Shown here: one piece after another, positions 3,606-61,945 of the stretch
Layout of the letters: the number at the start of each line of letters is the position of its first letter
How positions within the stretch are numbered: the stretch's first letter is position 1
Assembly (NCBI GenBank): GCA_017506865.1
Contig: JAFCMP010000412.1
Span: 248,001 to 312,000 of the forward strand
Source of the DNA: Tribonema minus
Lineage: Eukaryota; Sar; Xanthophyceae; Tribonematales; Tribonemataceae
DNA: 64,000 nucleotides
Reading direction: 5' to 3'
The notes under the pieces: model-generated
What the model was told of the DNA's origin: nothing
Seen by the model: only the letters and a program-made list of their open reading frames with translations
Database searches by the model: none
Made by a program: the position numbers and the translations under genes

Positions 3606-6600
3606 CTATCCCAGAGTGCAGTTGAAGCCAAACTTGGGCTGCATGTCCTTAGCGTTGACTTCAGTGGCAGCGCCAATGATGAGGCCCTGTGTGCACCTGT
3701 ACACGCGCCAAGCAGAGAGGCAGCAGCGCTCCAGAGGTCAAGTGTACTGCGTAAAGCAGTACACGCATAGGCTGGCCTCCTGTGAAGTTGGCATGATGCT
3801 GTATGGGGGCCCGGGTGCCACCCAAATGCAGACTATGGGCATTCGCTCCTCTGCACCAGCAAAGCAACATGAACTGACTCATATACCAAACTATGACCTC
3901 AGGCGCATGCATGTGCGGAAGGCGAGCTGCACTACGCAAGCCGTAGGTCGAGTGCAAGCGCATAGTACACGCCCCACCCCCAGCTGCTTTTGACGGGCTC
4001 TGAATAAGCAGCGCTGCATGGCTGCACGAGACCACGCCGTCATCGTCTGTCGCAGAGTACGCCGCAAGCTGAGTGTTGCTGCTGCACACAAGCTCGTAGG
4101 CATGGCAGCAGTTCCAGGCGCACTGTACCCCTTCTCATTTTGACAAACGCGGTTAATGGCTGGCGCACTCACTGGGATCGCGCACAGCGCTGGGTGCTGA
4201 GGCTGCGCCTGACCTGTCACTACCATACATACATACATGCTCATTGGATACTGTTCGCGTGCTCGCCGCGCCCTGCTTGTGTCTGTCATCAAGCAACAAT
4301 GCTGGACGAGCGCGTGCCGCGTGCACGGTATCGTTGCAAGCCTGCCTCGGCGTGCAGCGTCGTGCGAGCCCGAGCACGATCGCGCCCGCACTACAGCACA
4401 CCGCATGTAATACACGCTTCAAGCACATAACCACGTTCATCCTAGCCATGCACGCATTCGCCAACTGCACATCGGCGTACTCACTTGTGCTGAACGGCCG
4501 CGTGCAGCATGCCGTCGCTGGTCGCCTTGGCGCGCAGCGTCGTGTTGGGGTTGCACACGTACTTGGTCCCCACCACAACACTCTGCGCGCCCGTCTCCGG
4601 CGTGAGCGACGCGAGGACCACGGCAGTTACGTTCTTGGCGGGCGCGTACGTCGCGCTCAGGTTGTACGTGGCCATCTTGTTGGTGGTGGTGAGGGCCGTG
4701 AACCAGCCCGTGCCGCCATACGCGACGCCGGCGTTGTAGTCGCTGAGCGCTGCGGGCTTGTCGCCGGGCAGCTTGGCGCTGCTCAACGAAGGCGGTCAGC
4801 GGCAGGTGCGGCAGCGAATGACACAGGATTTGGTGAGTCTTGGAAGCAACGATGATGGGCTTTTGGTGAGTCTTTGCAGTGACAGTGAGCGCTCGAGGTG
4901 AAGGATTGGCTGCGGCGTTGTAGTCGCTGAGCGCTGCGGGCTTGTCGCCGGGCAGCTTGGCGCTGTTAGGCGGCGGCGCAGCAGCGGCGGCAAGGGCAGC
5001 AGTGAACAATGAGGTCTTCGTGCAGTTGATTGCGGTGGAGGTGAAGGCGGTGTCTGTGAGGCTGACGCGCATGTACTGCTGCTGCAGTAGCGAAGTTGAA
5101 GCCGGGCAGCTTGGCACTGTCGCAGCGCGGCGGCGGCGGCCATTGTCAGGCGGTGGCAGGCGCGGCAGCGAAAGAGACTCATCCAGTTGGTGTTTGAAAT
5201 GACGATGGGAGAGCAAGGTGAGGGCAGTGTCTGTGACGCCGGTATATGTGCTGCGGCGTTGCAGTCGCTGAGCGCCGCGGGCTTGTCGCCGGGCAGCTTG
5301 GCGCTGTTGCATGTCAGTTTGCTGTGGCGGTGCGCGAGGCAGCGATGGAGTTAGACTCGACTCCTTTGTGTATGGATCTTCCTATGAGTGCTTGGCGCTG
5401 TTGTAGAGGTTGAGGCGAAGGCGGTGTCTGCGAGGCAATCGCGCATGACATACGGCTGTAGTCGCGGAGTGCTGCAAAATAGTCGCAGCCGGGCGGCTTG
5501 CTTGACAGCGCGGTCATTCGGGGCTATGGCAGGTGCTGCAGGTGACTGAGGTGCAGCAATAAGACGCGTTTGGTGAGTCTTGGCTCCAACTTCAAGCGCC
5601 GCTCGGCAGCATTCACAAACATCGTGCCACATGTTCACGGTACATGTCATTGCTGCACCAGGACTGCTCGGTGATGCGACCTGAGCCATGCTGTTGGGGC
5701 AAGACCACAGTTGGTAGATACGTGATGTTTCTATTGCTGCTGAGCACTGTTGGTGCATTGCCACCTTCGAGTTAAGCTGATCCTGGGACACCTGAGATGT
5801 TACTACGGTGGGCCTTTGTACTGCAGTCAATGCCAGTGAGCATGTCACTGAGCATGACCGTGATACCCCTGCCAGACTTTGCAACTACAAAAGTGAAAGC
5901 GAACGGCCAGCGAAAATGCATTCAATGACCATTCATACATCGCCGTACTTGATGTCACACTTTGGCATGACGCCATTGACAAACACGTGCCAATCTGAAC
6001 CCTGAACCTACTTGATGCATACGCGGCCTGCCTCTCTGCTGGCTCCCAGCAGTCGTGTCACAAATTCTTTGAGAAAGTAACTACATGCTGCTGCGGTGCA
6101 GGGAGGGCATACACATAGTTCTGAGGGCAATGTCCACAAGAAAATAGCCAACCAACAGACCTGACAAAGCCACCATCATGCCGCAAAGGAATACCACACC
6201 ACACAGCTCAGAGCTGAGGGCTGCTACACTACGCAACTTCAACAGAGGCTTTATCAGACCTGATGCCATGGTACGCAGCTGGGCGCTGTCACACACACCA
6301 TTATTGCGTACATGAACTTTGACAACCTGTACAGACCGGACGATGCCGCCAGCGTTCAGACACACGACCACCATCGGATACTGTCGCAGGCACTTGCCAT
6401 ACATGCAGGCAGTTTGAACAGACCTGCTGATGCCGACAATGTTCACGCCTCAGAGTACGCTACCTGAGCATCGCCACGCTGCCACTGAATATACATATTA
6501 AACTTCACAGACACTGATGATGCCGCCAGCGTTCATGCCCCAGCACACCAGCTGAGCACTCGCACTTCACAAGGTCAACAGAAAAAGATATCATAACTTC

Positions 6601-9014
6601 AACATAACTCTTTGCCCTTACACTTGTTGTCTGAATTGACCTCATGCCGCCGCAGGTCACGCGCCGTGCCGGAGGTGACCATCACCAGTGTACATATGGT
6701 GGCCAACTTCAACCAACACTGTTTTGAACAGAACTGGTGATAACGTCGGCATCTGCGGCCCTCAGCTCAGCCGCCGCACTCAAACCTTCAATGGATAATC
6801 AGAACTTCAACAGATTCAATTTCCTTCTCTTGACGCTCATAAAGTGATGGAGCCGCCAGCGTTCACGCCTCTGGCGGCCCCTTGGCGACTGTGGTCACCC
6901 TTGGATGCTGGAGTGTCACCTGACTGTTGCAGATTGTGACGGTCACTAGAGCGACCAGCAGCCATACAAACGTAGCCAACTTCAACAGTCACTTTAGAAC
7001 AGACCTGATGATGCCGCCAGCGTTCACACCCTCGTACGCCACCCATGGCAAAGGTAACCACCAGTGATCATCACTGCCAACATGGCAACTTCACTTCATA
7101 CCTTAGAGAACGGATATCATAATTTCACAAAGTTCAATTTGCTTCTCTTGACACTTCAAGACAGACCTGATGATGCCACCAGCGTTCACGCCCTCGTACG
7201 CCGCCGTGGCGGAGGTAACCATCTTGGTGGCCTCCACGTCCATGTCCGTCTTAATAGCAAACCCAGCGCCCACATACTCCGCTCCCACATCGCCCTTGAT
7301 GGCATCATCCACCTGGCGGTGTCATCGGACACGTAGAGGGAGCAGCGAGGGCGGGAGGATGAGTTGTTGGCGCTGCAGCCAGCGCGAATGAAATTTTTGC
7401 GTTACTAGGGCGCGCAAACCACGTGCACTGGGGCTGCGGCTGGGTGCAGCGATGCGTACCGCGGACATGTTTCAATGTTGGGTTGGATTATCAGTGTGGG
7501 GGGGAAGTGATGCGAATTGATTTTGACAACAAAACAACGAGACTTGCCATCGACGAGACCGCTGCTCAGCGCACGCATTAGTGCGTGTGGTGACACCAAA
7601 ACCTCCAATGATGAATACATAGGACACTGTGTGGCCAGAGCTTGCCTTGACGGTCGACCTTGAGACCCTGGGGGAAGTCTCACCAGAAATCATCACTTGC
7701 CCTACCATGTGCGAAGGCCATCTACCTCGCCAAACACAACACCACCAGTACACGCTGTGCTCTGTGCGCACTGCGTTTGGCCCAGTCTGAAGTATGGCGA
7801 CCCTGCCCGAAACAGCACCGGTACACTGTACTGGACATGAACTCATATTGCACTGTGCAGTGCAACGGCGTACCTTGGCGGTGAGCTTGAGGCCAGGTGC
7901 GAGGCCCGCCAGCGAGCACTCCACGGTCTTGGCCCCGTTCTGAGCGATGGTGACCTTGTCCAACGCAAAGCCCGAGGGCTTGTGCGCGTACTTCAACTGC
8001 ACCTTGCCCGCCACGGCGCTGCCCTTGTGCTCATTCTCGATCGTGAAGTTGACGTTGTGCGGGGTGGTGTGCTTGACCTTAACCGTGCGCTTCAGGCTGA
8101 AGTCATCGGTCAGGAGGTCTGCAGAAGAAGCGGCGTAGTGCGGATTTGTTATGATAATTCTATGTGATCATTATTTTATGGAAGCAGTTCAGGTTCAGAT
8201 TACACAGCTTGACCTGTGCCAACATTGTTGGATGCAACACATCTCACACCTTTCAAACAGAATAAATTCACAGATGACTGCTTTACTCAGCTGACTGCTG
8301 AGCAAGTGTCATGCAGCTGTATTCGATGACTCTGCTGCTGTAACGTTGCCAAATCGTTGCAAGATTTGTCCCACGCCTTGTTCTGCTAGCGCAATCCGAA
8401 GCAGAGTTCCGCTGCTGCAGCGGTGTTTCAGTGTGGGATCTCTAGAACACTGAAAAATGCTCGCACGGGAGCTCGTCTGCTCATAGCACCGCTGTGAAAA
8501 AGTGAAGTTTAGGCAGTCACAGTACTGGCTCTGCTCACTGTGACAAAAGGTTGGCGTTTATGCATGGTTACGTAGCCGAATCCTTGGCCGCCGTTGATAC
8601 GTTCTCCGCCAGTGCCTCACCGTTGACCACCTTCGTCAGGTCCTTGTAGAAGGGAGGGACAACCTGAAAGAAAGGCGCAGGACAAGCAGCATCATCAGAA
8701 AGCTTGACGTCATGACTCTGCGGCGGCGCTGGCATGCTGACAAATCCGCGCAACACAAAGTATGTGTTGCACAGCACAGCTACATCAATGCGCAATAAAA
8801 CCATGTCAGCAGTAATGAGATCTATTGATAAAGCCGACGCCTCATGAGTCAAGTGAAAAGGCCTGCCAAGCCTCCCTGCTCGTCTCGCCTCGCACTGCTT
8901 TCGGCAAACGGCGTCTCTGAGGCGCAGATGGCGGCAACAGCAATCGCACACGAACTCACAACACGAGCGAAAGCAGAGAATGGACAATGCGACGCTCGCT
9001 TGACCACTTACCAT
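3606..9014 (-). CDS. VDAC: Mitochondrial porin / voltage-dependent anion channel, seven exons
   Basis: VDAC is the beta-barrel of the outer mitochondrial membrane that passes metabolites and ions. Exons on the minus strand, 5' to 3': 9012-9014 (only ATG, followed directly by GTAAGT), 8621-8663, 7874-8118, 7167-7312, 4485-4778, 4252-4282 (tentative) and 3606-3686, ending in TAG. All phases join without a break and give 280 residues, the usual porin length of about 275-285. The N-terminus reads VVPPFYKDLTKVVNDLL, matching the porin N-terminal helix. The middle has GLKLTAK and KYNAG-like ALSDYNAGVAYGG. The C-terminal strands include VVVGTKYVCNPNTTLRAK and TEVNAKDMQPKFGFNCTLG, where family members have TKAxxxxKFGLxL. 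The 31-nt sixth exon rests on phase and splice consensus alone (donor GTATCC). Introns 3 and 4 are filled with decayed exon-junction copies, described separately. A TATA-like element lies 80-90 nt upstream of the ATG. Confidence 0.87.
4913..5510 (-). repeat. Copies of the VDAC exon 5 head inside intron 4
   Basis: The first about 50 nt of VDAC exon 5 (coding AKLPGDKPAALSDYN at 4730-4778) recur in the same orientation at 4913-4966 and 5251-5306 with few changes. More decayed copies lie near 5099-5125 and 5455-5510. The copy at 4913 still reads AKLPGDKPAALSDYNA. All lie upstream of the live acceptor in transcript order, so they are removed with the intron. Confidence 0.85.
6190..7110 (-). repeat. 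Serial copies of the VDAC exon 4 tail inside intron 4
   Basis: The end of VDAC exon 4, including GTGAACGCTGGTGGCATC and its donor, recurs in degenerate form at about 7004-7050, 6850-6880, 6510-6540, 6420-6460 and 6330-6360, with weaker traces to about 6190. The spacing is about 155 bp between the copies nearest the exon. Each unit also carries intron sequence containing AACTTCAACAG and TTCTCTTGAC. The copy nearest the live exon (7004) is the best preserved. Confidence 0.8.
7640..7690 (-). repeat. Decayed copy of the VDAC exon 3 tail inside intron 3
   Basis: Read on the minus strand, this stretch matches the last about 35 nt of exon 3 (coding GLKLTAK): GGTCTCAAGGTCGACCGTCA against CCTCAAGCTCACCGCCAAG. 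It lies about 190 nt into the intron. I first took it for an exon, but the join from exon 3 to exon 4 is in phase and gives a normal porin without it. Confidence 0.55.
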
Positions 9015-9087
9015 GATTGACTGCGAGGATTAGGTGGTTCAGCGAGCTTTCGAAATTTGGCGATCCCGAAATATTGGTGGTACATAC

Positions 9088-9112
9088 CTACGGTATATAT
9101 ATCCTACCGTAG
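9088..9112 (-). promoter_or_regulatory. TATA-like element inside an 8-bp inverted repeat upstream of VDAC
   Basis: The arms CTACGGTA (9088-9095) and TACCGTAG (9105-9112) flank an alternating TATATATAT stretch at 9094-9102. The centre is about 85 nt upstream of the VDAC ATG, a reasonable distance for a TATA box with a short leader. Promoter function is inferred from position and composition only. Confidence 0.4.
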
Positions 9113-9139
9113 GCATCAGACAACATTGATTTACCTCGT

Positions 9140-9267
9140 GTACTTTTTATTAATTCTCGCTCAGGGCGCGAAAAAGCCCAGATGATTGGCATCTAGCTGT
9201 AAGGAATCTACATGTCGTATGACAGTCTGAAAGTGTCGCAACGACAACCACTCAAACGCCGCCGCCG
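9140..9267 (-). mobile_element. 5'-truncated LINE tail, 128 bp
   Basis: This 128-bp segment appears identical by eye to 10828-10955, the 3' end of the LINE remnant below. It contains the end of the reverse-transcriptase frame plus a short 3' tail ending in AATTAATAAAAAGTAC on the minus strand. Extreme 5' truncation is typical of target-primed reverse transcription. The close match to the second copy suggests recent insertion. The adjoining 9268-9320 carries a related but diverged tail (listed next). Confidence 0.75.
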
Positions 9268-9320
9268 TGTACTTTTATTAATTTCGCTTCGCAAGGGGCG
9301 CGAAAAGCCTCGTGTACCTG
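9268..9320 (-). mobile_element. Second, diverged LINE-type tail fused to the first
   Basis: The stretch begins TGTACTTTTATTAATTTCGC and continues with a GGGGCGCGAAAAG segment. This repeats the layout of the 128-bp tail (GTACTTTTTATTAATTCTCG, then GGGCGCGAAAAAG) with changes. CCTCGTGTAC occurs on both outer sides (about 9134 and 9309), which could be a target-site duplication or part of the tail. Confidence 0.5.
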
Positions 9321-9345
9321 GTGGTGCCAAACATCGGACATGCTG

Positions 9346-9415
9346 TGTTTACAAGCATGCAGCCATGCCTTCCTTGGTCATGTTTACAAGCATGCAGCCA
9401 TGCCTTCCTTGGTCA
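9346..9415. repeat. Tandem duplication, 35-bp unit
   Basis: Two adjacent copies of a 35-bp sequence beginning TGTTTACAAGCATGCAGCC and ending TTGGTCA. They are identical by eye. Confidence 0.9.
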
Positions 9416-9849
9416 CATAAGCAGTCAACACACCGCATTATAATGTGTGAGCCATGTGTGCTGCGTCCCGCAAAGTTAATCTTTTCAATGCTGCTTGGTG
9501 CCGCACCCGGGCAGCACCCTTCCCAGAACAGTCTGTATATACTGACCAGAGCATTATAAAAATGCACATACATACGGTAGACAAACCCTGCCAAAGCTGC
9601 TGGGTCATGTTCCGTGACAAGAGACCAGATTGCAGTTGAGAAGAAGCTGGTAAAGGAGGCCAAATTGCATCACTTGTGTGTAAATGTATTGACAAGTTTA
9701 CAACATGTGATGGTTTCGCTGTTGTACAACAGAGCACGCATGTACTTTTATTATATTCCACTTGTGGCTGTGGAAATGCCATGTTGTAGGTGTGTCGCCT
9801 TGTTCTCACTCTTGGATGTAGCATGCAAAGCTTGCACGCCACACCCCGC

Positions 9850-10509
9850 CCCCCACATCACCCCCAACAAAGCACCCGCAAGCGACTGTCCCCCACATAC
9901 TAGCAGGGATACCAAACAAAGCTGCAAGACTCTCCCCCCACAGACAGACCCGTCTTAGGGCCACCCAGCTCCACGCAGACTCCATCTCAAAGTTTTCATG
10001 CAGGCCAAGGTCACCATAATGGGCCCTGAACTGGAGATTGTGGCTATCTACGTGAACCCCGATATCATAAAGATAAGCAGAGGGAGTCACTGGGCGCCAG
10101 GCGCTGACGCTAGAAAGAAAGGCTATATAACTAAGCAAAGCATCGCCTCCTTGATGAGCGGGACGGTGGTTCACCGGGCCTCCCATATCACCCCCAACAA
10201 AGCATCCGCAAGCGACTGTCCCCCACACACTAGCAGGGATACCAAACAAAGCTGCAAGACTCTCCCCCCACAGACAGACCCTTCTAAGGGCCACCCAGCT
10301 CCACGCAGACTCCATCTCAAAGTTTTCATGCAGGCCAAGGTCACCATGATGGGCCCTGAACTGGAGATTGTGGCTATCTACGTGAACCCCGATATCATAG
10401 AGATAAGCAGAGGGAGTCACTGGGCGCCAGGCGCTGACGCTAGAGAGAAAGGCTATATAACTAAGTAAAGCATCGCCTCCTTGATGAGCGAGGTCACGGC
10501 TCACCGCAG
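9850..10509. repeat. Tandem duplication, 330-bp unit
   Basis: Two copies about 330 bp apart; for example CCCCCAACAA occurs at 9861 and 10191. The units differ at only a handful of positions. Because 330 is a multiple of three, frames run through both copies on each strand. The plus frame carries MGPELEIVAIYVNPDI, faintly like an endonuclease-fold strand. The minus frame carries RAHHGDLGLHENFEMESAW. I recognise neither as a known protein. The array lies between two copies of the same LINE tail and may be part of a mobile element. Confidence 0.75.
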
Positions 10510-10827
10510 GCTGCAAGCCTGACAAGATATTGCCATTTACCGCTGCTAGTAACTTGTGGTTGGTGCCGTGGCGTGCAGCCGACTCCGCTTGCTCTCCAAG
10601 CACGCCAAGCCGCTCCCTGTCCCTCCTCCGCACGCCAGCCAGGGCTTCCGAGACACCACCACACGTTTGAAGTTCTCTCGAAGGGGCTACGCACGCTGGC
10701 ATCACCTGGGGGCCGCTGGTGCTAGCTCCTGCAAGCCCTGCAGCCCAGCCCACCCACCAAACCAGCCGCATTCGCTGCCACGCCTTTCGGCGTTAACGAG
10801 CTTGGGCAAGATGTACCTCTACCGCAT

Positions 10828-11582
10828 GTACTTTTTATTAATTCTCGCTCAGGGCGCGAAAAAGCCCAGATGATTGGCATCTAGCTGTAAGGAATCTACA
10901 TGTCGTATGACAGTCTGAAAGTGTCGCAACGACAACCACTCAAACGCCGCCGCCGCCAAATGGCATCTCGGGGTCCTCCCCTACGTCCTCCTCCATGTGC
11001 CCCCCCCCTGGATTCTGCCATGTGTGTCATGACACGGCCAGAGTACGCCATGTGGAGCGCTGCCGGCAGTGCCGAGCGTAAGCGCGCCAGGGCGATGCCC
11101 TTGAGAGCTTTAAAACGCGCTCCTCCGGGCACTGACATCCTGCTGGCATACTCCGTCGCCACAGCCTCCAGCAGCTTCCGCCCCTGCTCCCCGATGCTGC
11201 CAAATGACCCTATTGCCAAAGTGGCAAGTTTGTAGCAATTCTGATCATAATGACCAGAATAGTGGGTAGTCTTGGCGGCCTCTTGGTCGCGGCAGCATCG
11301 CTCGGGGTCTGCTGCAGTCTTCGCCGCCCGCGACGCCACCTGTGCCTCGAAGCAGGTAACGTCCACCATGAGCGGTAGGTGGCGTGTCAGGTCGTCGTAG
11401 CCGGTCACCGGGAAGGCGTCGGCAGGCAGCACGATGTCCATCCTGCGACTCTCCGGCGGCCCGGCGGACCCCAGAAACGGCGTGTAGTCCTCGTCCACCA
11501 GTCCCGTTTTGAGGTATTGCCGCAGGATGCGCTGCGTGGCCCTCCTGACGCTATTGTGGACGATGTACCACAAGCAGTGCAC
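10828..11582 (-). mobile_element. LINE (non-LTR retrotransposon) 3' remnant
   Basis: A minus-strand frame of about 228 codons stops at 10896. It resembles the region after the reverse-transcriptase domain of non-LTR elements: a HxxxxxxL...C/H segment, then the pattern around LMVDVTCFEAQVASRAAKTA and TLAIGSFGSIGEQGRKLLEAV. Comparable elements have DVTVV...A..KAA...FVPLAVETFG...EA. No reverse-transcriptase catalytic motif or endonuclease lies upstream in this frame, so the element is 5'-truncated or broken near 11582. The 3' tail (10828-10895) is shared with the copy at 9140-9267. The exact 5' end and target-site duplication were not found. Confidence 0.7.
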
Positions 11583-12153
11583 AGTGCCTGTGCCGCGCGA
11601 TACCTAGGTAGCGTACCACACCAATGACCTTTGAAGCCCTTGCATGTGAATACATGCACCTCCATTGCTGACGGCGACAAAGCTGCTCTCTGCACTTTCT
11701 ACGACACCACATGCCGTAGACCATGAACCCCATACATGCGGCGTCACTTCCACATAAAAGCCAGGTCTCGAGGCCCCCACGATCGACTATCAATCAACCA
11801 CTTTTTGTGGCGTGAGGCGACCTGGCAGACTTGACTTCGTACAGGCAAGCGCCAGCCCATCGACCGGGCACCGACGACATTGTAGCGCAAGATGTGGCCG
11901 CTGCTACCAGCAACAGGCAACATAGACGCCAGACGTGGAGTGGGTGTTGCGGCAGCGGATGACCAATGCCATCCAGGCGACCGCTTCCCCCCCCCCCCAT
12001 TCGCCGGCACGTGTGCCAGGCCTCCACACCGCGCGGCGACACACATTCCCCGCCCCCTCTTCCAACTCAGATCAGGCATCAGGTCCGCCCAGGGGGGCAA
12101 GCCCACCCGCAAATCGCAACGGGACCCCCGTCTCTCATCCCCCCCCCATCCCC
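11583..12153. other. Spacer between the LINE remnant and the golgin gene
   Basis: No gene is supported. C-rich tracts at about 11989-11998 and 12140-12170 lie just downstream of the golgin stop codon. Some sequence next to 11583 may be decayed LINE. Confidence 0.35.
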
Positions 12154-15100
12154 TCAGCTCCCCGCCCCCCCGAGCAGGCCGCCGAACCCGGTGAGCCAGC
12201 GGTGCGCGCTGCCCAGCCGCTCGCGCTCGCGCCGCTCGTGCGCGGACGCGATTTCGCCGTCGGTGAAGTGCAGCACCGCCGCCAGGGCGCGCTCCATGTT
12301 ATGCCGCGCCACCGGGTCCTCAGTGCTCAGGTACTTGAGCAGCAGGTTGCGCACGTAGAGGAGCTTCACGTCGTCGCCCACGCCGCTGCCGCTGCGGCTG
12401 CCGCGCTCGTCTGCGCCGGCACCAACTGCGGGTGCCTCTAGGCCGCCATCGCTGCCGCCGCCGCTGCCGCCGCCGCCTCTGCCATTGCCGCCGGTGGCGT
12501 CAGCGGCGCCACCGTCACCATTGACGTTGACAGTAGTGGCGCCGCCGTCATCGCCGCCACCACCGTCGCAGTCGCCCTTTTCGGCCTGTGGCGACAGCAG
12601 CGGAGGCGGCGGCAGCGGCGGCGCGGCAGCAGCAGCAGTGGCCGCGCTCAGCAGCTCCCGCATGGCGCGCTGGTGGTACTGCTCGTACTCGCGCCGCAGC
12701 GCCGCGCAGCGCGCCTCCAGCGCCGCCACGCCCGCCTCCGTGAGCAGCTCACCGCGGCAGTGCTCAAACAGCGCCGATGCCGCCTGCGGCAGCGCTGCGC
12801 AGCGCTCGTCCTCCTGAGCGCTGCTGCTTGTGTTACCGCCTGCTGCTGGCGCTTTGGTGGGATCGACTGCGCCCCCTTCGACCGCCTGCGACTGCTGCTC
12901 GCGAGCCGCTGCCGGCTCTGATGCAGAGGACAATGGTACCGGCGGCGTGGTGCCGTTGTGGAAGGTCGGGCTGGATGTGGAGCTCGCCACTGGAACTTCA
13001 AGTCCGGGCAATGGGGGTGCCGCCGTCTGCTGCAGTCGCAACAGAGCTGCGTCCTTCTCCTGATGGGCTTGTTCGTAGCGCCGCTGCCACTGCGCCGCTG
13101 CCGCCGCTGCTTCTGCCTCTTTGCTGGCCTGCCGCTGCCGCTCTGCCTCCATCTGTGAGAGCAACAGAAAAAACACATCGAAATTGATGTGCATCAGGCA
13201 TGAAGTTGAAGGCTGGCAGCACATGGTGCATCATGAATGCTGCATCGCTGCTGCTGTGCAAACAACACCAACATTCGCACATGAACATCAGCTTCTTTCC
13301 TGCTGACGCTCGCGCAGTCGCTCCGCTCAGCCAGAGCCTATATTTTACACCAATGGTTGTACTGTTACAGCAGGTGATGAAGCAGAGTGATATGACTACA
13401 GCAAGCAGTTACTACGTTTACTACGGCGAAGCCTCGCATCCTGTAGCTGCACCGACACGACCTCTACCAAGCCGTACACTTCGAGGTACGTCAGTGCGCA
13501 CCAGTGCCTCGTGGTCGTGGCGAAGACTCGCGTCCTGCTGCTGCAGCTGCACGTAACTCCAAACAAGCGCCTGGACTATGCCTGCACAAGTGGCGTGCCG
13601 ACATAAAGGCACTTGCAGCTAACCACTCCTTGTCAACTAGAGCTCTACGACCTTTTGATTCGTTTCTACATAACCTCTACCAGCCCGTACCCTTCGAGGT
13701 ACGTCAGTGCGCACCTGCGTCTCGTGATCGTGGCGAAGCCGCCCATCCTGCTGCTGCAGCTACGCATTACATCCAAATGAGCGCGTGGACAATGCCTGTG
13801 CAAGGCGCGCCAATACAACCCCTCTACCAAACCGTATCCTTCGAGCTACGTCAGCTGCGCACCTGCGCTTCATGATCGTGGCGAAGCCTCGCGTCCTGCT
13901 GCTGCAGCTGCGTGCGTAGCCGCTCCACTTCGTCCGCCAGCTCGCGCAGCCGCCGCTCCTTAGTCACGCCCGCCGCGGCCGCAGGCTGTGGTGCGTCACC
14001 GGTTGTGCGCGATGCACCAACTTCAAGTTCAACTGCGGGATGCGGTCTGCGGACGGCGGGCGCGCATGTCGCGCCCTGCACGAGTGCGCAGCATTCAGAA
14101 GGGGGTCCGGCAGTCAGAAGTGGTGCAGACTTGCGATGCAAGCGGGCCGCGGCAGTAGAAGCTGCAGACATTAGGTATAAACGCCGCCGTATCCCCGCAG
14201 GCGTGGCGTCGGTATGCTGAACGCACAACACCCCTTCTTGGGGCGATATGACCCTTGCGCTTCTGTGTGCTGCGGCACACCTCACCACCTGGCATCTACA
14301 CGCCATACCGCAAGCATATAAACCAGTGTCAATGACCTCAAGTATGTGCTCACACTTCAGCACCTGTGATGCATGCACAAGAGGCAGGCAAAACCGGCAT
14401 GGCATATGCGGTGGCGAGGCGTCCTCCACCAGAACCCAGCCCGCGTTTAGCTTGAAGAGCCCCGTTCGCATGTCCGCACGCTGGTACGGGCATGGTGCAG
14501 ACGCGTTTCTGTGTCAGACTTGACACACATATGCATACACCACTGTGATGAGACGCCTGAAAGTCTCACCCTGGTGGTGCGCGGCGCTGCTGCTGCTGCT
14601 GCCGCTGCTGCTGCTGCTGCTGCTGATACGAGCGGCTTTGGTCGCGGCGTTGGGCCTGTCGTGCTGGGCCGTACTGCCGTTGGAGTGCTCCTATGAACCG
14701 CCTGTCGCACCACGCATTCGGCACGGCGTGGTCAGATGGCCAGGTTGCTGGGGGTTACAAAATGCATACTCAGCATGTGGTGATACGGCATCACACGCAC
14801 CTCGGCAGGGACAGCCTCATACAGTATGGTGATGCTCAGCTGAATCACTGAGCAACTTGTTCAGGCAGTACGCTTTGCAGCAGCACGCGTTGAACGCACG
14901 CGATCTGGTGACGACTCGTTGACAGTGCTATCCAGCCCAACAGGCGTGACTCTACTGTGAAATGAGAGGTTGAAAGGGTCAAAGGTCCCTGACGTAGGAA
15001 GCAGTGTAGAGTGCATGAAAGTTACAGAGGTGCGTTGCAGCCTCGGATTCGGCACGCTGTGCTAGAATGAATATTCTCGGCATCAGTGCACTGCAACATG

Positions 15101-38949: not shown

Positions 38950-39020
38950 CCTTCACGGGTGCCCGCATTGTCTGCATACCGAATCAGCTCCTCATATAAC
39001 GCTGACTCCTTGAGGGCAAA
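38420..39020. repeat. Inverted duplication with coding-like arms
   Basis: The plus strand at about 38420-38670 matches the minus strand at about 39020-38775. Both read GTCAGCGTTATA, then GAGCTGAT, then TATGCAGACAATGCGGGC, then GCAATTGAAGATGG. The right arm on the minus strand reads KESALYEELIRYADNAG; the left arm on the plus strand reads QELIRYADNAGAREL and AIEDGDLEEMQQIL in another frame. The right arm may belong to the minus-strand gene at 39356-40050. Between the arms is a short repeated palindromic run around GGACTGCTGTACATCAG (38690-38745). Confidence 0.7.
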
Positions 39021-39355
39021 TTGCCCCTGATTTCGCCCTCATGAAGCAACTCGCCCAATGGGCCTGATTATGGATAATACGGTCATAGCACTGCACCAAA
39101 ATGAGGCACTGGCGGAACACATTCCTGGAGCCATGTGTCTCTGTGCTCTGACCGCCACCTACTTCAACGATGACCCTGTCAGCAACAGCGGACATTTGCC
39201 ATGCGCTCCTGATGAGTTGCAACTGCAAGCTCGCAGATTTCATATGGTGTGCTGCTGCATTCTCTTCCTGTCTGAATCACAAGGCATCCACGCCTTTAAG
39301 AACACAACTCAAAAAACTCAAAAGACTCCCTTATAGATAAGAACTACACGCTTAC

Positions 39356-53593: not shown

Positions 53594-54619
53594 TTACCCC
53601 TCGCTGTCGCTGCCGCTGCCGCCTGAGCCGCTGCTGCCGCCGCTTCCATTTCCATCTTCCGAGTCGCTGCCACTGCCGCTGCCGCTGCCGGAACCGCTCC
53701 CGCTGCCGCTGACGGAGCCACTTCCGCTGCTCCCGCCATCGCTGCCGCTGCGGCTGCGCGTCCTGCTGCCATCATCGCTGCCGCTGCCGCCGCCGTCGCT
53801 GCCGCTCTCGGACGCGCTGCTGCCGTGCGACGCGCGCCGCCCGCGCCGCAGATGCTGCGCGATGTTGTGCAGCGCCGTAAGCTTGCGCCGCAGCCCCAGC
53901 TGAGCCATGGGCACGCCGATGCAGTCCAGGTCCTCCGCGCTGAGTCCGTGCGCCGCGATGAAGGCGAGGTCATCATAGCCCGCCGCCGCGAACGCGCGCG
54001 CGTACGCGCCGCAGCCCAGCGAGCGCAGCCACGCCGCCAGCGGCGCGCGCGCGCCCTCGCGCGCCGCCGCCGCCTCCAGCAGCGCCGCCACGGCGGCGTG
54101 GCGGCAGAGGCGCGCCGCGTCGAGGGGGGTGAGCGCGCCGTGGGCGCTGGGGGCCAGGGCAGAGGCGCCAGCGCTCAGCAGCTGCTGCGCGCAGTCCGCG
54201 TGGCCGCTGCAGGCGGCGTAGTGGAGGGGCGTCATGCCGTGGGAGTCTGCGGCGCCGGCATCGGCGCCGGGCGCCGCCAGCAGCGCCGCCACGATGTCCG
54301 GGCTGCTGCCGTAGCGGGCGGCCACGTGCAGGGGTGTGTGCCCCGGGAGGACTTTGCTGGTGGCTATGGAGTCCGGGCGAGCGCCGTGTTGTAGCAGAAA
54401 GGCGACAGCTGCATGGTTTCCCTCTGCTACTGCCAGGTGCAGGGGAGTCCACTGTTCGCCTGCCAGTCTCGCGTTCGCCCAGTCGCTGCTGTTGCTCCTG
54501 TAGGCCCATGAGGCAGCTGCAAGCAAGTCGCCAGTGCGTACTGCAGCGTAGGGAAAGAGTGCTGTGACTTTGTTTGTTCCATGTTGATTGGCCCCTGCTG
54601 CAGCAGCTGCAAGCGACAT
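53594..54619 (-). CDS. Ankyrin-repeat protein with SAM domain and Ser/Gly tail
   Basis: A single intact exon encodes 341 residues. Ankyrin repeats occupy about residues 55-195: EQWTPLHLAVAEGNHAAVAF, GHTPLHVAARYGSSPDIVAA, GMTPLHYAACSGHADCAQQL and ALTPLDAARLCRHAAVAALL. A SAM domain follows at about residues 196-260 (LAAWLRSLGCGAYARAFAAAGYDDL, seen in parts; GLSAEDLDCIGVPMAQLGLR; RRKLTALHNIAQHL). The tail is almost entirely Ser, Gly and Asp. ANK-SAM proteins are adaptors whose SAM domain can self-associate. The gene lies back to back with GST1. A truncated, damaged copy of its 5' part lies at 59057-59330. Confidence 0.88.
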   Translation of the reverse strand: MSLAAAAAGANQHGTNKVTALFPYAAVRTGDLLAAASWAYRSNSSDWANARLAGEQWTPLHLAVAEGNHAAVAFLLQHGARPDSIATSKVLPGHTPLHVAARYGSSPDIVAALLAAPGADAGAADSHGMTPLHYAACSGHADCAQQLLSAGASALAPSAHGALTPLDAARLCRHAAVAALLEAAAAREGARAPLAAWLRSLGCGAYARAFAAAGYDDLAFIAAHGLSAEDLDCIGVPMAQLGLRRKLTALHNIAQHLRRGRRASHGSSASESGSDGGGSGSDDGSRTRSRSGSDGGSSGSGSVSGSGSGSGSGSGSGSDSEDGNGSGGSSGSGGSGSDSEG

Positions 54620-55179
54620 GTGCTTGCTGGCGCTGTGTCTTGCGTTCAGTGGGTAGGTTGCGATGCGGATAGCGCAAGCACTCGAGGCAATGCTATTTTG
54701 GAACAGAGGAGTGGCTTGTCATCTACGCACCGCCTCTCGTACCACTCCTGCGCAAATTTTTAAACTAACACAACTGCCTTCAACTTCACACCCAACTTCA
54801 CACCCAACCGCCGCTTGCCGGTCAGGCCGGCGACCCGATGTCCCGACGCCCGACGCCGTTGCAGCCCGGCTGCTCACTCCACTCTCTGCTCCACTAAAAC
54901 CCAAAAGAGGTGAGGGCCTCGCGCTGCGCAGATGTTGTGATGTGTAGTGTACTGCTTCGAATGAACGAGCACACGCTCGGGGGCGGCGCGCGTTCGGTGT
55001 TTTCCTGCGATTGGATGGCAAGTCCTGTCGCGTTCCTGCTTTGCACGGTTGCGAAGCATGCGGCAAAGGCACAAACCTCTCAACATTGTACAGTGTACAG
55101 TGCATACAGTTGCTCATTGGTCACTGCCTGGCTGGATGTCCTTCTACGCGCTCTCTGTGTGCGTCCCAGCCCGCAGACG
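54620..55179. promoter_or_regulatory. Divergent upstream region of ANK-SAM and GST1
   Basis: The stretch contains CAACTGCCTTCAACTTCACA and a second ACTTCAC motif near 54780-54805. A related element sits at the corresponding place in block B (59456-59480). This conservation across the duplication fits a regulatory or leader role, but no core promoter element is clear. Confidence 0.4.
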
Positions 55180-55257
55180 ATGACTTCCCTCAACGCCAAG
55201 CTCGCTGCCTGGCTGAAAGTCCTTTACGCTCCGTGCGCGTCCCAACCCGTGCAGACG
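55122..55257 (+). repeat. Tandem copies of the GST1 coding start, 78-bp unit
   Basis: GACGATGACTTCCCTCAACG at 55177 is repeated as GACGATGACTTCTCCTAACG at 55255, exactly 78 bp on, keeping the frame. A third, older unit precedes them (from about 55122, CTGCCTGGCTGGATGTCCTT). The same arrangement exists before GST2 (59819 and 59897), so it predates the block duplication. Confidence 0.88.
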
Positions 55258-58200
55258 ATGACTTCTCCTAACGCCAAGCTCGGCGGTCCTGTCAAGCTCT
55301 CCTACTTCAATTTCGTCCCTGTTGGCGGCCGCGGCGGGCAGGTCCGCTTCCTGCTTCTCGCTCTCGGTGAGTGTGATGTTTGAAATGTGTGTCCCTCTTG
55401 GACATTGGTTTCCGTAGCGCCTGCGCATACTGGGTATCTGACTAGCGCTCCCGCGCCGATTGGCGCTGCCTGCCGCGCAAGTCGCAATGTGCTGAGTTGG
55501 TTTCTGGCTCGTTTGCTCGCACGCATACATATGCTGACTGACCGTATGTCACATTATGTGGCTCGCATTTATTCGAATGCATACGCCCACATCTCCCCGC
55601 ACACGCTGCGAGGTGGGCCGCGCCAGCACACTGCGACAGTGCTTGTGACTGCCTGCGGCTACTGTGCCATGCCCCTCTCCTCTCTCATGTAGGCATCGAG
55701 TTCGAGGAGGACCTGTTCAGCTTGGACGAGTGGCCGGCGCGCAAGCAGGCGCTCATTGACAGCGGCGACAACCCCTGCGGCGCCGTGCCCATCCTCCAGA
55801 TCGGTGACCTCAAGCTCTTCCAGAGTGTCTCTTTGGCGCGCTACGTCTGCAGCGTCACGGGTGTCGGGCCCACCGAGCCGATCAAGATGTACCAGCAGGT
55901 GTGTGTGTGCCGCGTTGCGCGTCTGGTGTGCTGCTGCGCGACACGGCCTTCTGCGCAAGTGTCGCAATCACGTGCACTTGCAAGCGTTAGTGCTTATTGC
56001 AATATAGGGCTGCCGGGAGGCTCACAGAGCAGCTCACCATGTACCAGCAGCTGCGTCTGAATTACTCTTGGTGTTGCGCAATGCTGACTTACAGGCTGTC
56101 ACAACAAGTAGCATGGTAATTGACATGAATGCTTGTGTATAGCACTGCCATGGCGGTCAGGCCGCCTGAGCCGCTCAAGAATGTACCAGTGGGTGCGTGC
56201 GCCGCTTTCCACGCTGTCCAGGCCTGACTCGTGGGTTTTCGTCACAACGTAGCGTGATGGTGCTATTGTGGAAAATTTGCAGCATCACCTTCACCCGTAG
56301 CATTACCAGTGTCAGTCGTTCAGGATGTACCAGAAGGCGCGTGTTCCGCGGCGCCGCATTTAATGTTGTTAACGTGCTGTGCGACATCGCCCTCCTGACA
56401 TGTATTGAGCTACCGGGGTTCGCACTGCCCACAGCAATATTGCTTACAGGCCTGCTCGGCCGCTCATGTTATTGCTGGCAGCATTGCGTCCGCGCATTCT
56501 CAACCCTGTGCTGCGCCTGGTGACTCTCCCTGCATTGCAGGACGCCCTCGGCGACGAGTACTCGACGTGGCGCGTGCAGTGGATCAGCGCTGTCTTCGCT
56601 GCGGAAGACAAGAAGGCCGCGCTGGTCGCTGAGTACGTGGCAGCGCTCCCCAAGCGCTACGCCATGTTTGAGACCATGTACACCAAGTTTGCCACTGGGA
56701 GCACGCCCTACGCTGGAGGTGCGTACTGGCCTACTCAAGGAAGCAGCACCTTGAGTTTATCTGCACATTAAATGCACTTTTATCAGTTCTTGGTGACAGC
56801 GCAAAAAGTCGAGATGGCTCAGGTTACGCTTGCTACTAGGGTCTACATGTACCTTGTCACAGGGTGCCTCAATGCATAGTGCCGAGCGCTTCTAACCAAC
56901 ACTGCATTTACTTCAGAAGAAAACATACATCTGGAAATATCCACAAATTGGTGGCAATTACTTGCAACTATACCCATTTACAAGGGTGGTGGCCACTACT
57001 GGCGCGCAGTTAAAGTGGCAGTGCCCCTCCCGCACTAAGCTGCAATCGTACCAATGTAAAACAGGTTGCACTGCTGCGCAGTTTTGAACATAACATGGGT
57101 CATCAGCTGGCATGTTCAGTGCACTGCCTCTTCAGTGGCTTGTTGATCATTTTGAGTGACTGGACACACAGCTACTCTGTTCGACCTATGACGATGCATA
57201 GCATTGAAGCTCTCACACACAAATTGCCACTGAACATACGCCTTACTGTCAGCAGCTCTAGTAGTTGCTGTCGGCTGAGCAGATGACTGTCAAACTCACA
57301 TAATCTGGTGTGGACAAGAATGAAGTTAACATATATGGGCATCGAGTGGTGCTGCCATGCACACATGTGACATGGCGTGCATTTCAGCCTATTCCAGCAT
57401 ACCTCAAATCTTTGCATCTACTTGTACTTCTATATCGGTTGACACTTTATAACTTGATGTAGCACATGAGCCATAAAGCGCACAAAGTATAGCTCACATA
57501 CTTCGGCAGCGGAATGGCTGCTTGCACCCCCCGCTGACATGACATCAAGTTGGTGAGAAGCATTTTGAAGCTTGCATGTCCTCAACAGCTGTCAGTACTT
57601 CAAACTCTTGTATACACCAGCGAAGTGTGTACCATAGTGGCTATGAGGTGCCTTTCTGCTCCAGGGGAAGTGTTCAACTTCCCTTTGCGGCGCTTGCTCC
57701 TTGGCACTGACAACAGGAACCCGCAGAAACCCGCAATCACCTTGTTCTTTTTCTGTATAGGCGCCTGGTGGCTACGGATGCTTTGGTGAGCAGACTTGCA
57801 CGCAGACGCACATAATCTTACCACCACTTGATCAAACCTGCCTCCAAGTACGCAGTTCTACTTCGATAATCATTGAGTGCCGCCAGGTAAGGCTTCGACC
57901 GGCAAGTAATGAAGTAATGAGCTCAGAACTCAACATTGAAACGCCTCAGCAAATGTACTGTACCGCTGTGCAGCAGATCCCATGCCACACCCATCGTGGG
58001 CACCCACTTGCGCTTGGCATGCAGCTACTAGTAGTACATACAGATGACACCCTTTTTCTTTTTTTGCCAAGGCTGCCATTGACGCATGTGCCCCGCACTT
58101 CCTCAATGCTTGTTGCGCAGGCGGCCCCCTGCCGCTGCACGGCGACATCTGCGTCTTCGCCCAGCTGTACGACGACCGCGCCACCAAGGTCGCGGCGCCC

Positions 58201-58296
58201 GACATGCTGGAGCAGTACCCCAAACTCAAGGCCCTGTACGCCGCTGTGGCAGCGCTCCCCGATGTCGCCGCCTGGCTGGCCAAACACGCCGCCTGA
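55180..58296 (+). CDS. Glutathione S-transferase, sigma-like (copy 1)
   Basis: GSTs conjugate glutathione to electrophiles; sigma-type members include prostaglandin-D synthases. Exons are 55258-55366 (or from 55180), 55693-55898, 56541-56718 and 58121-58296, all in phase. The core protein has 222 residues, or 248 if the upstream in-frame ATG at 55180 is used. The N-terminal thioredoxin-like domain has KLSYFNFVPVGGRGGQVRFL, with the Tyr at the catalytic position of sigma GSTs, then CGAVPILQIGDLKLFQSVSL with the cis-Pro, and a QS pair contacting glutathione. The helical C-terminal domain includes YSTWRVQWISAVFAAED and GGPLPLHGDICVFAQLYDD. The extra N-terminal 26 residues (MTSLNAKLAAWLKVLYAPCA...) arise from a duplicated start region. 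Intron 2 holds three decayed copies of the exon 2 tail. The gene lies in block A of the tandem duplication. Confidence 0.9.
56010..56345 (+). repeat. Three decayed copies of the GST1 exon 2 tail in intron 2
   Basis: The exon 2 end, GAGCCGATCAAGATGTACCA with GCAG and donor, recurs as CACCATGTACCAGCAGCTGC near 56034, GAGCCGCTCAAGAATGTACC near 56168, and GTTCAGGATGTACCAGAAGG near 56318. Spacing is about 140-150 bp. GST2 has no such copies in its intron 2. Confidence 0.8.
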
Positions 58297-59056
58297 GCAT
58301 CAGCTGTAGCGCAAGCTGTTGGACATATCCGACAGCGGTACCATAGCGGTAGCGGTTGCGACTGCCATGGCAGTTGGGGTGCAAAGGCGTCGATACTGTA
58401 CTACTAGTAGGTAGGGTACCCCAGTGTCGACAGTCATTTCGTTTTGTCATATGAGTGCGTGATGCCATCCGGCTCACTCCGCTCCAGCGCACCGCACCAT
58501 GCCGGCCAGTATATGTAGGATTTAGGGTATACTGCCTCAAGATACTCTGGCAATAATGTTGCTGCAATGACCAAAGACAGGCTGCCCAGTCGGTTTGGTC
58601 GGATGCCGTCCGTAGTTCAACTAGTTATGTACGAGTGGCCATACCACATCGCACTTCGCGTTTTAGCATTACTGATCAGGCACTGCTGCATCCAGAGGAA
58701 GGTGGCGGTAACACAGCAGCATTTTTTCAATCATTACTTTTGCACCTCCCTTTCCATGTGTACTTTTATTATATTCCATGTGTACTTGTGGTGGCATGTC
58801 TCTCTCGTTGCAAAAACCTGCATCTCTGCACTTTTAGGCTCTGTGCTTGCCAACTAGGAATACGCTGATGTGTATGGCAGGTACTTGGTGAAGGTCTGTG
58901 AACCTCCATAAAGGCTTCAGGCCAACCTTTTCCACAACCATGATTTCATGACAGACGGCTACCATGTGTTGTTGCTCGGTACACGTTCAATTTGCATTAG
59001 TTGATTTGGCGGGCGTAGCCGCGCCGTCTCAAGCGGAACCTGCTGCGCTGTGTTGT
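58297..59056. other. 3' flank of GST1 and junction of the two duplicated blocks
   Basis: Most of this stretch has a homologous counterpart at about 61946-62715. No gene is seen. GTGTACTTTTATTATATTCC at about 58757 recurs near 9738 and, reversed, near 34329. Confidence 0.5.
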
Positions 59057-59330
59057 GTGACCGGGGAGGACTTCACTGGCGGCTATGGTGTCCGGGCGAG
59101 CGCCCGTGTTGTAGCAGAAAGGCGACAGCTGATGGTTTCCCTCTGCTTCTGCCAGGTGCAAGGGACCACTCTTAGCCTGCCAGCCTCGTGTTCGCCCAGT
59201 CGCTGCTGTTGCTCTTGTAGGCCCATGAGCTGCGAGCAAGTCGCCAGTGCGTACTGCAGCGTAGGGAAAGAGTGCTGTGACTTTGTTTGTTTCGTGTTGC
59301 TTAGCACCTGTTGCAGCAGCAGCTGCAAGC
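59057..59330 (-). pseudogene. Truncated copy of the ankyrin-SAM gene 5' part
   Basis: The copy matches the reverse strand of 54345-54619 (first about 90 codons of the ankyrin-SAM gene) at high identity. It has several small insertions and deletions that change frame, the start codon is replaced (CCAGTC where the gene has CATGTC-type sequence), and everything after the second ankyrin repeat is missing. It is the left edge of duplication block B and cannot encode the protein. Confidence 0.85.
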
Positions 59331-59818
59331 GACTGGCCTTGCTGGCACTGTGTCTTGCGTCAGTGGGTAGGTTGCGATGCGGATAGCGCAAGCACTCGAG
59401 GCAATGCTATTTTGGAGCAGAGGAGTGGCTTGTCATCTACGCGCGCGCCTTCGTTAACACTTAACTTCACCCCCCCAACTTCACAACCCACAACCGCCCC
59501 CAGCCGGGGTCCGGCCGGCGACCCGACGTCCCGACGCCGTTGCAGCCCGAGTTTCATCCTCACTCCACACTCTGCGCTACAGAAAACAAAACAGGTGAGG
59601 TAAGGCTGCGCAGATGTGGTGGTATGAAGTGCTTTGAATGAACTCATGCCCAGCGCGCGTGCTGTGTATCCTGCGTTGCATGGCAGTGCAGTTCCTGTCG
59701 TTCCTGCACGGTTGCGGCAAAGGCATGTACCTCCCCAGCATTTACCCTGCATCCAACTGCTTGCTGCCTGGCTGAACGACACTTCCGCTCCGTGCGCGTC
59801 TCAACCCCTGCAGCGACG

Positions 59819-61945
59819 ATGACTTCCCTCAACGCCAAGCTCGCTGCCTGGCTGAAAGTCCTTTACGCTCCGTGCGCGTCCCAACCCGCGCAGACCATGG
59901 CTTCCCTCAACGCCAAGCTCGGTGGTCCTGTCAAGCTCTCCTACTTCGATGTCCTCCCTGTTGGCGGCCGCGGAGGACAGGTCCGCTTCCTGCTTCTCGC
60001 TCTCGGTGAATGCGACGTCTGGAGTGCGCGTCCATCTAATCATCGGTCGTCGTCACGCTGTAATGCTTGCGCAAACGCCGGTCTGACTCGGACGATGTCA
60101 AGCGTCCTGTCAGGGGGACACAGTGCGGAACTGGTGTTCTGCGCTGCACCGACAACACCTTCCACGCATCGCGAGCTGAGCGCTCCTGCACCGCTTGGCG
60201 TTACCTAAAGAGCAATCACGAGCGTACGACCACTGGCCAGTTCCATGTCACGCGTATACACACAGATATTCTGACGCGCATATATACACATACACGCACC
60301 CACATTTTTCACACTATGTGCTGTGCTGCGCCAGCACACTGCGGCAGCGTAACAACATATCAATGCAACGTCAAAACTCAGGACGCGCTGCGGCTGCTGC
60401 GCCGCACCCCCCTCCTGTCCCAGGCATCAAGTTCGAGGAGGACCTGTTTGGCTTTGACGCGTGGCCGGCGCGCAAGCAGGCGCTCATCGACAGCGGCGAC
60501 AACCCCTGTGGCGCGGTGCCCATCCTCCAGATAGGCGACCTCAAGCTCTTCCAGAGCGTCTCCATGATGCGCTACGTCTGCAGCGTCTCGGGGGTCGGGC
60601 CCACCGAGCCGATCAAGATGTACCAGCAGGTGCGTGTGTGCCGTGTCGCATGTCTGGTGTGGTGCTGCACGAAATTGCCTTCTGTGGTAGACTTTTAGTG
60701 GCATAATGTAGTGTGTTTGCTGCATGCGTCTGCAGGCCTCCAGGTTGCAATTGCCGACAAACCAAAACGTTGCGCCGTTCGGCTGCAAACTTCACACTTG
60801 CACGGCGTCACACGAGAACACCTGTGTCAAAGCACTGCACAACAGCTACCGAAACATGTAAATACACATTGCAGCGTCCACGCATTCTCACCGCTGCGCT
60901 GCGCCGGTGACTCTCCCTTGATCGCAGGACGCCCTCGCCGACGAGTACACGCAGTGGCGCGTGCAGTGGATCGGCGTCGTCTTTGCCGCGGAGGACAAGA
61001 AGCCCGCGCTGCTCGCAGACTACGTGGCAGCGCTCCCCAAGCGTTATGCCACGTTCGAGGGCATGTACGCCAAATTTGCCACCGGGAGCACGCCGTACGC
61101 TGGAGGTACGTGCTGGCCGAGGCAAAAAAGCAAAATAGTGTATCTGTACATTAATTACACGTACTTGTCATGACTTTGAGACATGTACCTGATCCAACGA
61201 ATGTTAAAGCCCATTTGCGCCTTTGTTTCTCTTCAGTGACAATGAGAACGCACAATCAAATTGGTATTATGTTTACGGTTGCATGGTGCTGCGGATGCTT
61301 TTGTGGACGGACGCTTTTGTGGCCGGACTTGCACACAAAAATACACAATCTGGCCACTGCTGATATCATAACATTTTCTTACAGTTTCATTTGATGATCA
61401 TTTAGTGCCGCTACGTGGGGCTTTGACAGATAAGTGATGGATTGTCACATACTTCCCGCCGCGGGCGCCAAGGTGCGCGAGCTCGTGCTGCCGACGCTGC
61501 GCGTGGTGCAGGACCACCAGGTGAGCCCCCGAAGTATCAATACACTTCCAGAGTATCAATACACTTGAAGAACACTCGAAGCAGCTGAAACGCTTCGAGA
61601 AGTGTTCTGTACCGCCTTCCAGCAGCTTCCTTGCCACATATAGCAGGGACACCCACTGGCACTCGACGAGCAACTACAAACGGCTTCCTTCAAAAGTTTG
61701 CGAACTTGAATTCATCAGCACTCCCACTGACACAGCGTGTGCCCCTCACTTCCTCCACTCATCGCGCAGGCGGCCCCCTGCCGCTACACGGCGACGCCTG
61801 CGTCTTCTCCCAGCTGTACGACGACCGCGCCACCAAGCTCGCGGCGCTCGACATGCTGGAGCAGTACCCCAGGCTCAAGGCGCTGTATGCCGCTGTGGCA
61901 GCGCTCCCCGACGTCGCCGCCTGGCTGGCCAAGCACGCCGCCTGA
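59819..61945 (+). CDS. Glutathione S-transferase, sigma-like (copy 2)
   Basis: This is the paralogue of the preceding GST with identical exon lengths and phases: 59897-60005 (or from 59819), 60424-60629, 60928-61105 and 61770-61945. It has KLSYFDVLPVGGRGGQVRFL with the catalytic-position Tyr, CGAVPILQIGDLKLFQSVSM with the cis-Pro, YTQWRVQWIGVVFAAED and the C-terminal LPDVAAWLAKHAA. Differences from copy 1 are conservative and the frame is intact, so both look functional. The second in-frame start 26 codons upstream is also kept. Intron 3 contains a GC-rich exon-like island (61456-61521), described separately. The last about 67 bp, including the stop, are repeated just downstream. Confidence 0.9.
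61456..61521 (+). other. Orphan exon-like island in GST2 intron 3
   Basis: A short GC-rich segment reads GAKVRELVLPTLRVVQDHQ and is followed by a good donor (CAG|GTGAGC), inside an otherwise AT-richer intron. It has no counterpart in GST1. As a 48-nt insertion from GTGCGC it would keep the reading frame but in another phase. It resembles a fragment of a coding exon from elsewhere. Confidence 0.5.

Follow-up and report, generated by a model that had tools for sequence, protein, structure and literature searches.

From what material do introns grow? Intron length is usually ascribed to mobile elements and to small insertions and deletions, and the window analyzed here, a stretch of 64,000 nucleotides (nt) of the Tribonema minus genome (contig JAFCMP010000412.1, positions 248,001 to 312,000), raises the question of whether genes contribute to it themselves. 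An initial annotation of this DNA reported that introns in six unrelated genes (VDAC, a golgin, DDX51, a MORN gene, a gene for a membrane protein, and GST1) carry partial copies of the edge of an adjoining exon, and took these for the product of a genome-wide ratchet of tandem duplications across splice junctions. We find that 26 of the 140 introns sampled owe part of their length to exon edges of their own gene, and we give a probability of about three in four to the view that the source of the copies is ordinary local duplication of short segments, with selection acting as a filter. The presence of the copies, their side, orientation, spanning of junctions, non-coding decay, and locality were shown by computation, as was the continuity of the protein for a few genes.

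Direct Copies of Exon Edges in Introns

In the edge test, the 60 nt of an exon edge were locally aligned to the intron and the score was compared with 400 equal-length draws from the introns of other loci. The nine edges named by the initial annotation all gave p = 0/400, with inverted alignments scoring at the level of the null mean (44–74), so the claim that introns in six genes carry direct copies of exon edges holds. The scores were 210 for the exon-3 tail and 250 for the exon-4 head in VDAC intron 3, 135 for the exon-4 tail in VDAC intron 4, 192 for the golgin tail, 122 for the DDX51 head, 241 for the membrane-protein tail, 124 for the tail in GST1 intron 2, and 165 and 136 for the MORN gene (introns 43566–44238 and 44308–45763); "MORN introns 3 and 4" and "DDX51 intron 1" were placed on these coordinates by assumption. 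Among the 25 edges tested, 11 reached p = 0/400 (these nine and the first-exon heads of GST1 and GST2) and one 5/400. The other 13, including other edges of the same genes, were non-significant; hence copies do not occur at every edge.

The window (G000:C412:248001-312000, in a genome of 158 Mb and 554 contigs; 59% G+C) was joined with 20 evenly spaced 10-kb stretches, 14 from contig C334 and six from C412, in a sample of 264 kb on which the following counts are based. By its genes and codon use, the genome resembles that of a green alga. Exons were modeled with a simple hidden-Markov gene finder trained on the sampled DNA, some genes being checked by homology, and the splice sites in use are those predicted from sequence. 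This program predicts too many short exons and takes some of the copies for exons. Exons were filtered at ≥60 nt and score 8 (178 of 316 retained) or at ≥90 nt and score 15 (135 of 316), and low-complexity queries were excluded from every count. In the final set on which the gene finder was trained, about 15% of donors have GC in place of GT, which may be real or gene-finder noise. The spliced VDAC protein matches Porin_3 (E = 6.5e-20; a Pfam match only, as phmmer found no match among solved structures) and the spliced GST1 protein matches GST_N and GST_C_3, whereas helicase, MORN, GRIP, and ankyrin/SAM domains were found in single exons of the window. Homology thus backs VDAC and GST as well as individual exons in DDX51, the golgin, and the MORN gene. 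It does not extend to the exons at the junctions of the membrane protein, the golgin, and the MORN gene, which are gene-finder models.

Frequency, Side, and Orientation

Copies of exon edges are present in 26 of the 140 introns between well-scored exons (tails in 17, heads in 13), and inverted copies in one. They are not a peculiarity of the window: outside it, 20 of 100 introns carry copies, in 8 of 19 loci, with the hits clustered in loci such as L012, L013, and L015. When the last 60 nt of exons were compared with the next 1.5 kb at a looser setting (score ≥110), direct matches were found for 28 of 140 tails, against 0.35 expected from mismatched intron–exon pairs, and for 24 of 144 heads compared with the upstream sequence, against 1.2 expected; inverted matches numbered 1 of 140 and 0 of 144. 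Some direct matches lay on the wrong side (tails 9/138, heads 9/143), and at score ≥115 predicted exons of ≤94 nt account for 12 of 15 of them. With stricter exons and threshold, tails match on the right side in 17 of 108 cases and on the wrong side in 1 of 104, heads in 13 of 111 and 0 of 111, inverted copies are absent (0/108 and 0/111), and mid-exon queries match in 1 of 101. Chance resemblance can be rejected, the copies being far above both random and mismatched-pair levels. The expectation that introns with copies would be longer also stood, with a median of 710 nt against 545 nt for those without (p = 0.007).

The rule that exon-tail copies lie after the live donor and exon-head copies before the live acceptor holds almost throughout, but it says little of splicing. 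Any copy of an exon tail that is made locally must fall in the following intron, and the rule is therefore mostly geometry. As proof of a splicing-directed process it is rejected; side shows local duplication only.

Junction Spanning and Serial Arrays

Once the alignments were extended, 44 of the 50 segments were seen to cross the junction (26 of 28 on the donor side and 18 of 22 on the acceptor side), which agrees with direct duplications that span donors and acceptors. Since the segments reach into existing intron sequence, they favor the lengthening of introns. Most of them include part of an exon only. A junction-spanning query found copies at 28 donors and 25 acceptors. At least two copies were found at 16 of the donors (up to five) and at 9 of the acceptors (up to eight); at these junctions, 25 in all, the copies form the serial arrays that had been described. 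In locus L012, for example, acceptor copies lie at −135, −282, −444, −588, and −747, and in L015 donor copies lie at +149, +298, +552, and +690. The unit of 65–210 bp given by the initial annotation is typical, as 60% of the 68 junction events are shifted by 60–210 nt (median about 176), but not exclusive. In a profile around junctions, downstream matches peak at 0.189 over the final 50 nt of the exon and at 0.116 over the initial 50 nt of the intron, and on the acceptor side upstream matches peak at 0.150 over the initial 50 nt of the exon, against 0.015–0.031 deeper in the exon (downstream, donor profile) and 0.035 and 0.031 in intergenic DNA.

Decay of the Copies

If the copies were alternative or duplicated exons in use, or the remains of recent whole-exon duplications, one would look for coding constraint in them. 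Mismatches between copies are distributed evenly over codon positions (122/560, 115/568, and 126/570; p = 0.72, copies below 72% identity excluded), whereas those that separate a live exon from its copy fall more often at third positions (180/1131, 198/1136, and 247/1141; p = 0.001). Together these indicate that constraint acts on the live exon, whereas the copies drift. As a control, GST1 and GST2 were compared over four exons, and in every one of these a single codon position is in excess. Internal gaps are present in 40 of 59 copies, junction shifts are divisible by three in 26 of 68 events (about one third), and, as seen above, the segments are mostly partial exons. On the other side, the gene finder calls several copies exons, and in L013 in-frame copies of 63 nt retain both splice sites. 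Codon-position evenness leads us to reject coding or alternative exons in bulk, and as a general account they are improbable; single copies, such as those of 63 nt in L013, may be exons.

The L013 array itself (8479–9338) comprises five copies of an exon end about 140–350 nt apart. Two of the later copies are 63 nt long, keep an open frame, and have a splice site at each end; these are perhaps real repeated exons.

The outermost sites, i.e., the first donor and the last acceptor, would leave the protein unchanged, as had been proposed. L015 (isopropylmalate-synthase-like), L028 (fructosamine-3-kinase), and L021 (diaminopimelate epimerase) align to solved structures straight through their copy-bearing junctions, so in the genes checked homology is continuous through the outermost sites, and the RNA is presumably spliced there. 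Relic sites are well preserved: GT is kept in 30 of 41 donors and AG in 31 of 35 acceptors (dinucleotide background 0.63), and 19 of 41 and 23 of 35, respectively, reach or exceed the lower-quartile score of live sites (copies below 70% identity and exons scoring below 12 excluded). No selective loss of relic sites was seen in these sets, GT retention being near that of neighboring positions and AG retention higher if anything, in alignments that are anchored at the junction and thus inflated at central positions.

Mobile elements offer another source of repeats with exon-like edges, through introners or some other dispersed family. Introners have been described in about 5% of the species searched (PMC9860276), and the window does hold a dispersed, often paired repeat at 1960–2279 with 77 matches. 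Each array, on the other hand, matches its own exon. Four of the copies were searched for in the 158-Mb genome, and none turned up anywhere but at the locus of origin or, for VDAC, at its paralog; this search for dispersal scores best candidates only. The similar units in unrelated genes that mark introners were not found for these four copies, so mobile elements are unsupported and most improbable as the source.

Junctions and the Probable Role of General Local Duplication

Are splice junctions special, or do they share in duplication that goes on everywhere? The sample yielded 128 events: 25 intergenic (2.97 per 10 kb), 32 inside introns (2.52 per 10 kb), three at gene edges, and 68 touching a junction. 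None lay wholly within exons, in 52.9 kb of exon free of low-complexity sequence (low-complexity repeats inside exons exist in the window and stand outside this count). Median shifts are nearly the same in the three large classes (179 intergenic, 194 in introns, and 176.5 at junctions). Duplication across junctions thus occurs as the initial annotation stated, but also elsewhere in the genome, and the similar intergenic and intron rates and spacings take away from the part of the claim that made junctions special. Because these rates and spacings are similar and exon interiors have no such events, general duplication with selection is favored.

Several observations weigh against this view. First, 11 of the 19 loci outside the window have no copy. 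Second, 28 of the 50 matched pairs are separated by unmatched DNA (19–903 nt) and so need not be strictly adjacent duplications. Third, the relic sites are near-intact, and this view does not explain why they would not be used. Fourth, by rough arithmetic about 24 junction events are expected where 68 were found, an excess that is unexplained. Fifth, the copies of a donor array are more alike in their exon-side part than in their intron-side part (0.75 versus 0.61; higher in 33 of 40 pairs, pairs inside one array being non-independent). In acceptor arrays the values are 0.71 and 0.66 (26 of 49 pairs). Simple decay explains the donor difference only in part, and re-copying from a constrained live edge would in part give it.

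The last two points suit a rival explanation, that junctions are hot spots of duplication, e.g., through breaks or R-loops at exon–intron borders, at which the live edge is re-copied repeatedly. Also in its favor, exon-edge rates relative to intergenic DNA are 5.3-fold (1.65–19) and 3.9-fold (1.2–16), with wide bootstrap intervals. The corresponding intervals on the intron side of the junction include 1 (3.25-fold, 0.84–12; 2.7-fold, 0.64–13.5), and there is little excess among the youngest age-matched pairs (t = 0.05: tail 3/111, head 3/116, intergenic 21/1551, deep intron 19/1266). At t = 0.1 the values are 14/111 for tails, 9/116 for heads, 10/113 for intron heads, 9/105 for intron tails, 54/1551 for intergenic DNA, and 69/1266 for deep intron; the excess at junctions is about 1.5- to 4-fold at t = 0.08–0.1 and near chance in all classes at t = 0.13. 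False exons and arrays raise the junction count, as does the lower rate of change in the exon copy, which is also part of the reason that the copies are conspicuous. With the same spacing found elsewhere, hot spots are an unlikely explanation, but a twofold preference for junctions is possible. A broader version, in which hot-spot junctions turn introns into arrays of decoy sites and an outermost-site splicing rule tolerates many near-intact decoys, is rather doubtful.

Under general duplication with selection, short local duplications would arise frequently throughout the genome, mostly with shifts of about 60–210 nt, by slippage or end joining and later perhaps by unequal exchange. Where a duplicated stretch extends across a donor or acceptor, use of the outermost splice sites would leave the mRNA unchanged, and the other copy of the exon edge would become intron sequence and drift. 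Repeated events, with expansion of the array itself, would then give serial relics and, over time, longer introns. Selection would remove duplications inside exons, and those in introns and intergenic DNA would persist. The name ratchet implies irreversibility, whereas deletions may shrink introns. Each relic derives from an exon that is both known and under constraint, which allows the relic to be dated and its splice site to be traced, and the intact relic sites provide a natural experiment on how the spliceosome chooses among near-identical donors and acceptors in real genes.

VDAC and GST Paralogs

Two pairs of paralogs show how such introns differ between related genes, in two-way comparisons that leave the differences unpolarized and do not separate gain from loss. 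Introns 3 and 4 are common to VDAC1 (the gene of the window) and VDAC2 (contig C513). In intron 4, VDAC2 has four relics of the exon-4 tail and a second-order duplication of 292 nt (93% identity), and VDAC1 a single degenerate relic. In intron 3, relics of the exon-4 head number three in VDAC1 (about 2388 nt) and two in VDAC2 (about 607 nt). The stretch before the live exon 4 of VDAC2 does not align to that before the live exon 4 of VDAC1; it aligns to the stretches that precede relics in VDAC1 (75% over 236 columns and 68% over 455). On these alignments, the live acceptor position of one gene appears to have become a relic in the other.

The second introns of GST1 and GST2 correspond, that of GST1 having 642 nt and three tail relics and that of GST2 298 nt and none. 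The identity of the GST1 relics (about 0.75) and that between the GST1 and GST2 introns (0.61–0.68) do not distinguish a gain in GST1 from a loss in GST2. A copy of the first-exon head is present in both genes and so probably predates their split. The two genes lie in a tandem duplication (window 54335–62717) that includes sequence of the neighboring ankyrin/SAM gene.

Features of the Window

The live exons and copies in the window are given in Table 1. Further repeats were noted there. The dispersed repeat at 1960–2279 is present as a tandem pair (85% alike, shift 167), and its genome matches are often pairs about 180 nt apart. At 9132–10955, two direct repeats of 136 nt (98.5%) flank a 330-nt tandem pair (96%) and a minus-strand open frame of 328 amino acids; this repeat-bounded stretch is possibly a mobile element. 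A long imperfect inverted repeat at 38414–39025 (68% to its own reverse complement over 646 columns) could form a hairpin, and a telomere-like unit of 12 nt is present in four imperfect copies at 46057–46105, within a gene region. An Rfam scan of the window gave no match.

Table 1. Live Exons and Edge Copies in the Window (Window Coordinates; Scores from Local Alignment)
Feature	Position	Strand	Evidence
VDAC exon 3, live, tail copied (donor side 7167)	7167–7312	-	Gene finder; spliced VDAC matches Porin_3
Five relics of VDAC exon-3 tail, intron 3	7005–7062, 6845–6903, 6648–6683, 6514–6549, 6424–6464	-	Scores 210, 133, 98, 126, 95; those below 100 (98, 95) weak
VDAC exon 4, live, head and tail both copied	4485–4778	-	Splice ends by eye (gene finder's end 4484, at a TGA); Porin_3
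Three relics of VDAC exon-4 head, intron 3	4913–4962, 5254–5303, 5453–5500	-	Scores 250, 232, 117
Relic of VDAC exon-4 tail, intron 4	4300–4363	-	Score 135, p = 0/400
VDAC exon 5 (last)	3606–3696	-	Ends by eye; no copy of its head in intron 4 (edge test p = 271/400)
Golgin exon, live tail (donor 13863)	13863–13985	-	Gene finder; GRIP domain in next exon
Relics of golgin exon tail	13715–13764, 13502–13557, 13425–13453 (short)	-	Scores 187, 192, 109
Relic of DDX51 head (exon 18722–18916)	18434–18470	+	Score 122, p = 0/400; called a small exon by gene finder
MORN-gene exon, live tail (donor after 43565)	43337–43565	+	Gene finder; no Pfam match
Relics of MORN-gene exon tail	43673–43714, 43859–43910	+	Scores 165, 143; called exons by gene finder
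Relic of MORN-gene exon head (exon 45764–46033)	45613–45641	+	Score 136, p = 0/400; another copy near 45677 with junction-spanning query
Membrane-protein exon, live tail	50078–50425	+	Gene finder
Copies of membrane-protein exon tail	50488–50546, 50745–50802	+	Scores 241, 136
GST1 exon 2, live tail	55693–55898	+	GST_N and GST_C_3 matches of spliced protein
Three relics of GST1 exon-2 tail, intron 2	55998–56050, 56142–56189, 56286–56336	+	Scores 110, 124, 85 (114, 133, 111 with junction-spanning query)
GST2 intron 2, shorter paralogous intron, without copies	60630–60927	+	No copy scoring ≥80
Copy of GST1 first-exon head, upstream of exon 1	55180–55213	+	Score 101, p = 0/400
Corresponding copy upstream of GST2 exon 1	59819–59852	+	Score 127, p = 0/400

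Comparison with Known Systems

An earlier study of internal duplications that include splice sites reportedly described whole introns, with a flanking exon, being multiplied or created. It resembles the present case in its internal duplications across splice sites; it differs from the lengthening by edge relics seen here, which that study is not known to describe.

Tandem duplication is an established source of new introns (PMC3443670), and, as here, the duplicate supplies the splice sites and the protein is unchanged. In that process an exonic AGGT segment gives rise to a new intron, whereas here an existing intron is lengthened by a duplicate that crosses a live junction, and the copies are direct and local, with inverted ones absent from the strict set. 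The RdRp gene of potato provides a closer likeness, a tandem duplication across the boundary between an intron and the next exon (PMC4974935), but it is a single event that gave a new intron, whereas here many junctions carry serial copies and no new intron is needed. Short direct repeats are also known at splice sites (4–30 bp, mean 11.4; PMC11782384). They resemble our copies in lying near intron borders, but they compare the two borders of one intron, whereas here tens to hundreds of nt repeat one border. In the genome of the green alga Haematococcus lacustris, short repeats lie in tandem in complex patterns (PMC7617258), a similar arrangement that is not reported to be tied to exon edges. 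Among the matches listed from the open-licence PMC literature, we recognized no account of serial intron growth by junction duplication. In conclusion, what is known is the creation of introns by tandem duplication, and what appears to be new here is the probable serial lengthening of existing introns by duplication of their junctions.

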